A stretch of 35,752 bases of DNA from Patescibacteria group bacterium (lineage in GTDB: Bacteria; Patescibacteriota; Patescibacteriia; UBA1558; GWA2-36-10): positions 1-35,752 of the forward strand of contig JAQUKX010000004.1 of NCBI GenBank assembly GCA_028718865.1, in the 5' to 3' direction. How positions within the stretch are numbered: position 1 is the first letter of the stretch; each line of letters opens with the position of its first letter. The position numbers and the translations under genes are program-made. A model generated the notes under the pieces. That model had not been told where the DNA came from. It searched no databases and saw nothing but the letters and a program-made list of their open reading frames with translations. Positions 123-21,235 of this stretch are shown piece after piece.

Positions 123-140
123 GTTTTTATCAAAATGAAG

Positions 141-160
141 AGCGCTACCGAAGTAGCGCT
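141..160 (-). terminator. Hairpin at the 3' end of the small zinc-ribbon gene
   Basis: Perfect 8-bp stem with TTCG loop on the minus strand: AGCGCTAC-TTCG-GTAGCGCT; overlaps the stop codon. Confidence 0.55.
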
Positions 161-309
161 CAGGAAGCGAGCTTGCTGGACAAAGGATCTTTGTCCAATT
201 TAGGGAACTCGGGTTGAAACTCAAGCTTGAACTTACAGCCGCAATTGGAGCAAAAACCTTGTTGTTGCCAAGCCCAGTGGCCACAGTGCCGACAGAAGTG
301 ATACTTCAT
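160..309 (-). CDS. Small zinc-ribbon protein (49 aa), absent from the ORF track
   Basis: Own translation: MKYHFCRHCGHWAWQQQGFCSNCGCKFKLEFQPEFPKLDKDPLSSKLAS*. CxxC-x10-CxxC zinc-ribbon spacing; perfect AGGAGG upstream of the ATG; upstream TTGACA-17-TAAATT promoter. Confidence 0.8.
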   Translation of the reverse strand: MKYHFCRHCGHWAWQQQGFCSNCGCKFKLEFQPEFPKLDKDPLSSKLAS

Positions 310-347
310 GTCTCTGCCTCCTAGAAAAACGAACAAGAGACCTTATT

Positions 348-376
348 AATTTAATATTTATAGAGGGTTTTGTCAA
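348..376 (-). promoter_or_regulatory. Sigma70-type promoter of the zinc-ribbon gene
   Basis: Minus strand TTGACA (371-376), 17-nt spacer, TAAATT (348-353). Confidence 0.6.
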
Positions 377-1199: not shown

Positions 1200-1228
1200 T
1201 TGACAACTTTTCAAATATACGCTAATAT
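1200..1228 (+). promoter_or_regulatory. Strong sigma70-type promoter for ncRNA candidate 1
   Basis: TTGACA (1200-1205), 17-nt spacer, TAATAT (1223-1228). Confidence 0.75.
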
Positions 1229-1234
1229 GATTAG

Positions 1235-1380
1235 CACTGAGGACTAGCAATAGCCGATTGTCATCAGGTCGATCCCTTCCGGGAATCCAAAACCTAGGTC
1301 GATCGACCTAACAATCCCGCTATTGCGACAGAACTCCTCAGTTGGGCCACCTTGCCAAGTCTCGGTGGCCCTCTTTTTTT
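1235..1380 (+). ncRNA. Structured ncRNA candidate 1, family not recognised
   Basis: Nested helices ACTGAGGA/TCCTCAGT, GCAATAGC/GCTATTGC, GATTGT/ACAATC and AGGTCGATC/GATCGACCT, followed by GGGCCACC-N12-GGTGGCCC plus T-tract. Confidence 0.75.
1344..1380 (+). terminator. Intrinsic terminator of ncRNA candidate 1
   Basis: 8-bp stem GGGCCACC/GGTGGCCC followed by tcttttttt. Confidence 0.85.
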
Positions 1381-1391
1381 AATTAAAACTA

Positions 1392-1420
1392 TTGACATAA
1401 TATATTTTTTATACTATAAT
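1392..1420 (+). promoter_or_regulatory. Perfect-consensus sigma70 promoter for ncRNA candidate 2
   Basis: TTGACA (1392-1397), 17-nt spacer, TATAAT (1415-1420). Confidence 0.85.
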
Positions 1421-1426
1421 ACCAAT

Positions 1427-1728
1427 CTAGTACATTTTTAGGGCCGCTCTCGTGGTTTGCCTAGCAGGTCTCCTCCTAGCCTGCAAAGCAGTCTTCCCTC
1501 CATGATAGCGGCCCCATTTCAGGGCTGTTTTGTCTGAACCTCCCACCGGATTGGGAAAAGCACCACCACCCACGTCCCAGCCGGTAATCTCCTCCGGCAA
1601 AACAGCCCCCAAATTCGGGGGTCTCCAAGAGTATGCGCGCCGCCTAGTCATGAACTAGGCAGAGCCCTCTCTTCGTGAGGCCCCTATCATCAAAAAGCCG
1701 CTTGACATCTCCGGGCGGCTTTTCCTTA
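1427..1728 (+). ncRNA. Structured ncRNA candidate 2 (about 300 nt), family not recognised
   Basis: GC-rich island with helices GGGCCGCT/AGCGGCCC, GGGCTGTTTTG/CAAAACAGCCC (11 bp), ACCGG..TGGGA/TCCCA..CCGGT, CCCCC/GGGGG and GCCTAGT/ACTAGGC, then a terminator hairpin. Confidence 0.75.
1693..1728 (+). terminator. Terminator of ncRNA candidate 2
   Basis: AAAAGCCGC-TTGACATCTCCGG-GCGGCTTTT; loop begins with TTGACA. Confidence 0.7.
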
Positions 1729-1733
1729 TAAAA

Positions 1734-1762
1734 TTGACTTTTAAGCCTATATTTACTACAAT
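1734..1762 (+). promoter_or_regulatory. alaS promoter; apparently leaderless
   Basis: TTGACT (1734-1739), 17-nt spacer, TACAAT (1757-1762), 6 nt to ATG 1769. Confidence 0.65.
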
Positions 1763-1768
1763 TTACTA

Positions 1769-3514
1769 ATGAAACATATGACTAGCCAAGACCTAAAAAC
1801 CCAATTTTTCAAATATTTTCAGTCCAAAAACCATAAGATAATCGGCTCAGCTTCTCTGCTACCGGACAACGATCCGACAGCTCTTTTTACCACAGCTGGT
1901 ATGCATCCTTTGGTGCCTTACCTAATGGGCGAAAAGCATCCTGAAGGAAGCCGATTGGTCAGCGTCCAAAAATGCCTGCGTACTGGTGATATTGAAGAAG
2001 TAGGCGACACTATTCATCATACTTTTTTTGAAATGCTAGGCAACTGGTCTTTGGGTGACTATTTTAAAAAAGAAGCTATTGCTTTTTCTTGGGAATTTCT
2101 AACTGAAGTTCTCAAGTTGGAAAAAGAAAAACTAGCTGTTTCTGTTTTTGGCGGCAACAGTGATGTACCACACTATGATAGTGAATCAGAAAAATACTGG
2201 CTAGAAATAGGCATAGCCAAAGACCGAATTGCCAGAATAAGCGACAACTGGTGGGGACCGGCCGGCAACAGCGGGCCTTGCGGACCTGATACCGAGATGT
2301 TTTATTGGACAGGCCAAGGCCAAGCGCCGGACAAATTTGATCCCGATGATTCCAACTGGGTAGAAATTTGGAACGATGTTTTGATGGAATACAACAAAAC
2401 TCAAGGCAATCGTTTTGAAAAACTCCAACAACAAAATGTCGACACCGGTATGGGACTAGAAAGAACTTTAGCTGTCTTAAACGGTCTAAGCGATAATTAC
2501 CAAACCGAGCTTTTCTTGCCTATTATTGCCAAGCTGGAAGAGCTCTCTGACCAGAAATATCAAGCTGATCAGCGTAGTTTTAGAATTATTGCTGACCATA
2601 TCCGCTCAGCTGTCTTTATCTTGGGTGATGAAAAAGGAATAGCTCCCTCCAACAAAGACCAAGGTTATGTCCTGCGTCGCTTAATCAGACGGGCTATACG
2701 CTTTGGAAAAAAATTGGGCATAGCCAAAAACTTTTGTCAGGAACTGGCAAAAGTAATAGTAGATAACTATCATAAATCTTATCCGGAACTAGGCCAAAAT
2801 AAAAATTTTATCTTGACGGAACTGGAAAAAGAAGAAAATAAATTTCGCCAAACTTTGGAAAAAGGCTTGCGTGAATTTGCCAAACAAAAAACCATAGACG
2901 GCAAAGTTGCTTTCATGCTTTTTTCCACCTACGGTTTTCCCTTGGAAATGACCGAAGAACTGGCAACGGAAAATAATATCAAGATAAACAAAGAAGAATT
3001 TTACGCTGAATTTAAAAAACACCAAGAGCTTTCCCGCACTGCTTCAGCCGGACGCTTCAAAGGCGGCCTGGCTGACGATAACTATAATACCAAGCGTCAT
3101 CATAGCTCTTCTCATCTGCTTTTGGAAGCTCTCAAGATAGTCTTGGGACGCGAAGTCAGTCAAAAAGGCAGTAATATTACCCAGGAAAGAGTGCGTTTTG
3201 ACTTTTCTTGGCCAGAAAAACTAACTCCCGAGCAAATAAAACAAGTAGAAGATATTGTCAACGAGCAAATAAAAAAATCTCTACCTGTGCATTTTGAGGA
3301 AATGAGTTTAGACAAAGCCAAAGAAATAGGCGCTACCGGTGTTTTTGATCATAAATATGGCGATAAAGTAAAAGTTTATTTTATGGGTAGTTTCTCCAAA
3401 GAAATCTGCGGCGGACCGCATGTGGACAATACCAGCGAACTGGGGCATTTCAAAATAATCAAAGAAGAATCGTCTTCGGCCGGCGTCAGGCGCATTAAAG
3501 CAATTTTGGGTTAA
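1769..3514 (+). CDS. alaS: Alanyl-tRNA synthetase, short form ending after the editing (tRNA_SAD) domain
   Basis: Class II AlaRS N-terminus (TTAGMHPLVPYLMGEKHP..HHTFFEMLGNWSLGDYFKKEA) and editing motifs HHSSSH and CGGPH; 581 aa, no C-Ala/DHHA1 region. Confidence 0.95.
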   Translation: MKHMTSQDLKTQFFKYFQSKNHKIIGSASLLPDNDPTALFTTAGMHPLVPYLMGEKHPEGSRLVSVQKCLRTGDIEEVGDTIHHTFFEMLGNWSLGDYFKKEAIAFSWEFLTEVLKLEKEKLAVSVFGGNSDVPHYDSESEKYWLEIGIAKDRIARISDNWWGPAGNSGPCGPDTEMFYWTGQGQAPDKFDPDDSNWVEIWNDVLMEYNKTQGNRFEKLQQQNVDTGMGLERTLAVLNGLSDNYQTELFLPIIAKLEELSDQKYQADQRSFRIIADHIRSAVFILGDEKGIAPSNKDQGYVLRRLIRRAIRFGKKLGIAKNFCQELAKVIVDNYHKSYPELGQNKNFILTELEKEENKFRQTLEKGLREFAKQKTIDGKVAFMLFSTYGFPLEMTEELATENNIKINKEEFYAEFKKHQELSRTASAGRFKGGLADDNYNTKRHHSSSHLLLEALKIVLGREVSQKGSNITQERVRFDFSWPEKLTPEQIKQVEDIVNEQIKKSLPVHFEEMSLDKAKEIGATGVFDHKYGDKVKVYFMGSFSKEICGGPHVDNTSELGHFKIIKEESSSAGVRRIKAILG

Positions 3515-7922: not shown

Positions 7923-8426
7923 ATGAAAACCCTGCTGACTTTGACGCTAATTCAAAAAAACAAGCAAATACTTTTGGGTTATAAAAAAAGAGGTTTTGGA
8001 ATTGGCAGGTTTAACGGCTTTGGTGGCAAAGTAGAAAAAGAAGAGAGTGTTAAAGAAGCCGCTTATAGAGAAGTATTTGAAGAAGCAGGAATTGAAGTGC
8101 ATGATTTGGAAGAAATCGGAATAATTGATTTTTCTTGGAACAATCAAAAAAATCCGCCTCTAACAGTTTATGTTTTTAAGGCCGATTCTTTTTCCGGTCA
8201 AATTGAGGAAAGCGAAGAAATGAAGCCAGAGTGGTTTGAAATAGATAAAATCCCTTATAAAAAAATGTGGGATGATGACCGCTACTGGTTTCCTTATTTT
8301 CTTCAAAACAAAAAATTTCAAGCCGAGTTTATTTTTGACAGCAAAGATAAGGTAGTTGAATACAATATCCAGGAAATGACTGACGCAAATAAATCCAGAC
8401 AAAAAGAAGAGGAGCCCGCAAGCTGA
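7923..8426 (+). CDS. NUDIX hydrolase, MTH1-like (8-oxo-dGTP/oxidised purine NTP hydrolase)
   Basis: Nudix box GFGGKVEKEESVKEAAYREVFEEAGIEV; MWDDDRYWFPYFLQNKKFQAEFIF resembles the MTH1 W.DD.YWFP motif. Confidence 0.85.
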   Translation: MKTLLTLTLIQKNKQILLGYKKRGFGIGRFNGFGGKVEKEESVKEAAYREVFEEAGIEVHDLEEIGIIDFSWNNQKNPPLTVYVFKADSFSGQIEESEEMKPEWFEIDKIPYKKMWDDDRYWFPYFLQNKKFQAEFIFDSKDKVVEYNIQEMTDANKSRQKEEEPAS

Positions 8427-8608
8427 TAACAGTTTTTGAGCTCCTTGAATTGATTGATTTTGACTCGGGGAGCGCTCCCGGCAACACGTCTCTTCTATTT
8501 TTGAACACAATTTTACGTGTTTTGTCTCATATAGAGACTAAGGATCCTTTTCGCTTACGCTACTTCGGTCTCCTCGCCAGGAACGCTCCCGCCCGTCGAC
8601 CAATCAAT
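8400..8608 (-). ncRNA. Structured ncRNA candidate 4 (about 205 nt), rod-like
   Basis: Minus strand: ATTGATTG at the predicted TSS pairs with CAATCAAT; 15-bp helix GGGAGCGTTCCTGGC/GCCGGGAGCGCTCCC; hairpin GTCTC-TATAT-GAGAC; terminator AGGAGC..GCTCCT-CTTCTTTTT. Confidence 0.75.
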
Positions 8609-8613
8609 AGAGT

Positions 8614-8642
8614 ATATTAGCACAAATAAAATAATTTGTCAA
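8614..8642 (-). promoter_or_regulatory. Sigma70-type promoter of ncRNA candidate 4
   Basis: Minus strand TTGACA (8637-8642), 17-nt spacer, TAATAT (8614-8619). Confidence 0.75.
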
Positions 8643-20952: not shown

Positions 20953-20993
20953 AAATAAACCCCTAGGACTATTGACAGGGGTTTATTTTTTTG
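20953..20993 (+). terminator. Intrinsic terminator of the M23 peptidase gene
   Basis: 12-bp perfect stem AAATAAACCCCT/AGGGGTTTATTT plus T-tract. Confidence 0.85.
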
Positions 20994-21000
20994 CTATACT
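20972..21000 (+). promoter_or_regulatory. Promoter of ncRNA candidate 5, embedded in the preceding terminator
   Basis: TTGACA (20972-20977), 17-nt spacer, TATACT (20995-21000). Confidence 0.75.
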
Positions 21001-21006
21001 TATCTT

Positions 21007-21235
21007 TGTGCCAAAATAAGGCACTGTTTTTTTCCAATCGGTGCATAGACTTCTGGGAATATCGGGATTCCTCCAAAGATGCGGCTAATTCTCCCCAGAA
21101 AGCCATCACAGTCTTTGGGGCAACGTTTTCCTGGTGTCAGCACCGCTTTCTCTCCTGCCAAGGAGAGCGTAAACATCCAAGGATGGACTATCCACAAGGA
21201 TGTGGGAGGGTACGATAAGCCCTCCTCTTTTTTTA
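21007..21235 (+). ncRNA. Structured ncRNA candidate 5 (about 225 nt), family not recognised
   Basis: Helices GTGCC/GGCAC+T7, CGGTGC/GCACCG, TTCTGGG/CCCAGAA, CTCTCC/GGAGAG, CCACA/TGTGG; possible pseudoknot CCAAAGA/TCTTTGG; terminator GGAGGG/CCCTCC + T-tract. Confidence 0.75.
21205..21235 (+). terminator. Terminator of ncRNA candidate 5
   Basis: GGAGGG-TACGATAAG-CCCTCC followed by tcttttttt. Confidence 0.8.

Follow-up and report, generated by a model that had tools for sequence, protein, structure and literature searches.

A probable structured RNA gene of a lineage-restricted family in the mnmA–alaS island of a Patescibacteria genome

The window, as we call the whole 35,752-nt stretch of DNA analysed here, is the start of contig C4 in an 877-kb draft genome (98% complete) of a Patescibacteria group bacterium, and its named AlaS relatives are Parcubacteria and Falkowbacteria MAGs. 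Contig C13 ends with the same 127 bases with which the window begins (positions 1–127), an overlap that places mnmA and a pair of small genes upstream of the window. Two tandem RNA cassettes precede alaS, and hpf (raiA family) lies directly behind it. The second cassette is our subject, and the elements at this locus are as follows:

1200–1378, plus strand: candidate 1, a separate tandem RNA cassette (promoter at 1200–1228, rod-shaped hairpin, terminator)
1392–1420, plus strand: sigma-70 type promoter TTGACA-17-TATAAT, a 12/12 match
1427–1440, plus strand: unpaired 5′ leader CTAGTACATTTTTA, with GTACATT kept in the sister species G001
1441–1514, plus strand: domain D1, closing helix GGGCCGCT/AGCGGCCC, extra in comparison with G001
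1516–1614, plus strand: domain A, 13-bp closing helix, the core that is conserved in G001 and has two compensated pairs there
1617–1685, plus strand: domain B, closing helix GGGGGTCTC/GAGGCCCCT, counterpart GGGAGCTTCC/GGAGGCTCCC in G001
1693–1723, plus strand: hairpin of the intrinsic terminator, with a short T-tract behind it, from the predicted fold and a terminator scan
1734–1762, plus strand: alaS promoter TTGACT-17-TACAAT; a similar promoter precedes alaS in most family members
1769–3514, plus strand: alaS (alanyl-tRNA synthetase), the downstream neighbour with its own promoter
G001 contig C29, 232 to 1, minus strand: the ortholog, a 232-nt structured RNA at the contig end

A first-pass annotation had proposed an ncRNA gene of about 300 nt at this site, a proposal that the promoter, the fold, the terminator and covariation with the sister species support at the level of sequence. 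The perfect promoter that it placed ahead of a GC-rich island is indeed there: the two strands of 863 kb contain only 17 such 12/12 sites, of which 13 are intergenic, and the GC content reaches 0.58 in 1441–1724 vs 0.37 in intergenic DNA of the same genome. The minimum free energy of 1427–1728 is −127 kcal/mol, compared with a mean of −88.6 (sd 5.0) for shuffled sequences (z −7.7), and none of 100 shuffles equalled it. Both long helices proved exact as quoted, namely the 11-bp helix of domain A, GGGCTGTTTTG/CAAAACAGCCC (1522–1532/1598–1608, extendable to 13 bp at 1522–1534/1596–1608), and the 8-bp helix of D1 (1441–1448/1507–1514). The island also ends in a terminator, with arms AAAAGCCGCTTG/CGGGCGGCTTTT at 1693–1704/1712–1723, but its U-tract (TTTTCCTT) is short, and of two scans our custom one accepts it while the stricter one does not list it.

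Following mnmA, the conserved gene at the far side of the island, into G001, the only same-genus genome available, led to an ortholog with the promoter TTGACA-18-TATAAT, a fold z of −4.5 and the same leader motif, GTACATT. Contig C29 ends within the terminator, and contig C71 begins with T's 92 nt before alaS; the two apparently join, in which case the ortholog would adjoin alaS in G001 across the contig break. The first-pass annotation had suggested a comparative alignment, and one with G001 did reveal paired mutations. In the MAFFT alignment, the G001 domain aligns to domain A of the window, and the central 11-bp helix, which reads GGGCCGCTTTG/CAAAGCGGCCC in G001, carries two compensated pairs and no broken one. 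TTTGTCTGAA and CCCCCAAAyTC are identical in both genomes, and direct reading of domain B gives a second conserved helix with one further compensated pair. As there are only two clear orthologs, the covariation amounts to two pairs of the main helix, and the shuffle control, which has just two sequences to work on, is weak, 130 of 500 shuffles reaching the covariation of domain A. The eight outer pairs of D1 are the same as those of the G001 domain, so that D1 looks like a duplication, and this extra 5′ domain of the window is probably a second copy of domain A. Within the family, a covariance model built on domain A matched convincingly at the window and G001 loci only (E about 1e-29), with no convincing match in other genera. 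The general features of a structured ncRNA gene, that is, a promoter, a terminator, a compensated helix and no conserved frame, are thus all present, in two orthologs only. Judged from sequence, 1427–1724 is very probably an RNA gene.

The tandem arrangement with candidate 1 before alaS, also put forward at the outset, held in part. Candidate 1 itself folds strongly (z −7.0) and has no Rfam match, but it is absent beside the ortholog in G001, which implies that the pair is not conserved and that each RNA is a gene of its own.

This RNA does not belong to the standard housekeeping RNAs. The Rfam search that the first-pass annotation had recommended found no family at the gathering score in the window, and none of the sub-threshold matches was meaningful. 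The RNase P model has no match in the window; its best match in the genome lies at C9:24365-24638, below the cut-off, and at the orthologous junction another genome of the family comparison, G016, has a recognisable RNase P. No T-loop motif was found in the candidate RNA and no match to the tmRNA model in the window, the tmRNA of the genome being located at C5:15425-15833. The 6S model gave no match in the window or anywhere in the genome up to E 10, and the raiA RNA model none in the window even at E 10. Nor was the candidate identified as SRP RNA by the small SRP model or by a GGAAG-type apical motif, and no SRP RNA was recognised genome-wide. Neither 53 relatives nor 36 genomes from the order showed a nucleotide match to the RNA; a 45-nt match to G001 among the relatives is the alaS promoter region. 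Phage sequences gave no match to the RNA, and plasmids a single one of 45 nt over the promoter, likely by chance. Our literature search found no description of such structured ncRNAs in the Candidate Phyla Radiation.

Of about 18 genomes of the GTDB family whose DNA upstream of alaS could be read, 12 have promoter/structured-RNA/terminator cassettes there, one to four per genome and with fold z values from −2.6 to −10.6; in another 75 or so loci, almost all of them not of this family, none was seen. Cassettes of different genera share no significant blastn similarity. Within genera, homology is seen for G003/G014 and G004/G015, with compensatory changes in G003/G014. As a yardstick, blastn of G000 against G016 recovers the tmRNA (69% over 428 nt) and RNase P, and does not recover the cassette RNAs; at the junction C2:36005-36255, both genomes carry a cassette in the same orientation and of unrelated sequence. 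A similar 5′ stem, about GGGyyGCTG, does recur in seven to nine cassettes at a comparable distance from the promoter. A test of the shared D1-type closing stem in nine sequences gave double changes in 7 of 9 pairs, with arms hand-picked from predicted folds and artificially joined, a design in which unrelated hairpins would show double changes too. A closing stem of the D1 type is nevertheless likely to be common to several genera, its homology being suggested by the shared 5′ sequence alone. The pentamer GTACA occurs in 6 of 30 cassette leaders vs 7 of 540 background promoters; being the best of 1024 pentamers, and with two of the six leaders orthologs, it is only modestly enriched after correction. 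More tentatively, the family may carry a lineage-specific class of RNA cassettes at fixed junctions (mnmA–alaS and others), all with the same plan of promoter, leader, hairpins and terminator and with near-complete sequence turnover between genera. If true, RNA would here be evolving in an unusual way; such turnover is expected of RNAs that are engaged in an arms race or work by shape alone.

Fast turnover would also be displayed by a neutral or selfish cassette that occupies a hot spot and serves no function in the cell. The island is variable, with some 0.65 to 22 kb between mnmA and alaS in members of the family, and the RNA has no convincing sequence match outside the genus. We consider this rather unlikely, since the genus retains compensatory changes, the strong promoter and the position of the RNA, and neither a mobility gene beside the RNA in the window nor a phage match was seen. 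That a strongly promoted RNA is kept in a genome of <1 Mb suggests that it has earned its place. The best reading remains an undescribed, rapidly evolving RNA family in the variable mnmA–alaS island of a Patescibacteria lineage.

Lying shortly before a tRNA synthetase gene and in the same orientation, the RNA might also be taken for a T-box-like leader or attenuator that regulates alaS in cis. This is improbable, however: a terminator and the separate promoter at 1734–1762 stand between the RNA and alaS, no T-box match was found with Rfam, and in some relatives alaS has no such RNA upstream. Since alaS is served by a separate promoter beyond the terminator, the RNA is more than a leader of alaS, and action in trans is favoured, although we would put the chances of such action at about even. 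The reading as a whole, an independently transcribed and intrinsically terminated ncRNA gene of a lineage-restricted family that probably acts in trans, is one that we hold with moderate confidence.

Under this reading of an independent RNA gene, the molecule would consist of a short single-stranded leader, the lineage-specific hairpin domain D1, the conserved domain A, domain B and the terminator, and would be a stable structured RNA acting in trans. Its long helices may hold out conserved single-stranded segments (the leader GUACAUU, UCUGAAC and CCCAAAyUC), and these exposed segments could contact a partner RNA or protein. Hfq was not found in the genome; CsrA is encoded, as is a KH protein from the KhpA/KhpB family. 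When targets were predicted from duplex energies, the scores were not clearly better than with shuffled loops, and no partner emerged.

One specific trans mechanism would be an sRNA whose CUCC-rich loops mask Shine–Dalgarno sequences, as the four CCUCC motifs of the RNA (1.3 expected) and the CTAGGAGG before the start of a neighbouring small gene might suggest. The G001 ortholog, however, has no CCUCC, CTCC over all cassettes shows no enrichment (35 vs 30), GGAG-type Shine–Dalgarno sequences occur in only 30 of 641 genes (>=150 aa), and no target stood clearly above shuffled loops, so that we regard this mechanism, too, as hardly credible. Slightly less probable still is a small-protein gene, in the form of a TTG-started frame at 1530 that encodes 42 residues. 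In G001 a 60-codon frame begins at the same TTGTCTGAA, and many small proteins are made from promoter/terminator cassettes in the island, where small SD-led genes are also found. Yet beyond the 5′ arm every one of the 40 identical columns counted has another codon phase in G001, peptide homologs are absent from the fetched loci, and the frame lacks a GGAG-type Shine–Dalgarno sequence and starts inside the long helix. A CsrA sponge was rejected on its GGA content (2 vs 2.8 expected, none fully unpaired); overall, the tests lent no support to a reading as anti-Shine–Dalgarno RNA, CsrA sponge, alaS leader, small-protein gene or housekeeping RNA.

Several known systems resemble the RNA gene proposed here. 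Orphan structured bacterial ncRNAs of the raiA-motif type are likewise independent multi-hairpin RNAs beside housekeeping genes, whereas the window RNA has no Rfam match and is restricted to one lineage; raiA RNA is widely conserved, and the sequence of the window RNA evolves far faster (PMC11706538). Structured trans-acting sRNAs with unpaired pairing loops share the own promoter, several hairpins, exposed loops and intrinsic terminator, but here the genome has no Hfq and no target is supported. CsrA sponges of the CsrB/RsmZ type are similar in being multi-hairpin RNAs of genomes that encode CsrA, and differ in that the window RNA shows no GGA enrichment and no fully unpaired GGA.

Some further observations concern the surroundings of the RNA and its relatives. 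The 16S rRNA of this genome keeps CCTCC despite the scarcity of GGAG-type Shine–Dalgarno sequences (30/641 genes), and several small cassette genes have such a sequence. A gene for a small zinc-ribbon protein lies in the mnmA–alaS island of both genus genomes (window 140–376, minus strand; L258 1343–1619, plus strand). Another conserved small protein, MDTWIIFYGEDPVSSF / MHIWVIFYGSPVSTF, is encoded with a strong Shine–Dalgarno sequence at the same junction in C16:926-1216 and G016:545349-545627 (both minus strand). Upstream of alaS in G014 (L011), the cassette m3 looks tRNA-like, with an acceptor-type stem ending in GCCA, and lies beside a tRNA-Cys(ACA)-like gene that has its own promoter; in the window's own genome, C17:5793-6062 (minus strand) holds two tRNA-like genes with abnormal anticodon loops in one promoter/terminator cassette, which ARAGORN cannot assign. 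Finally, the window contains two more promoter/structured-RNA/terminator cassettes with no long frame, at 8410–8642 (minus strand) and 20972–21226 (plus strand), and at the junction orthologous to the latter G016 has a cassette on the opposite strand.
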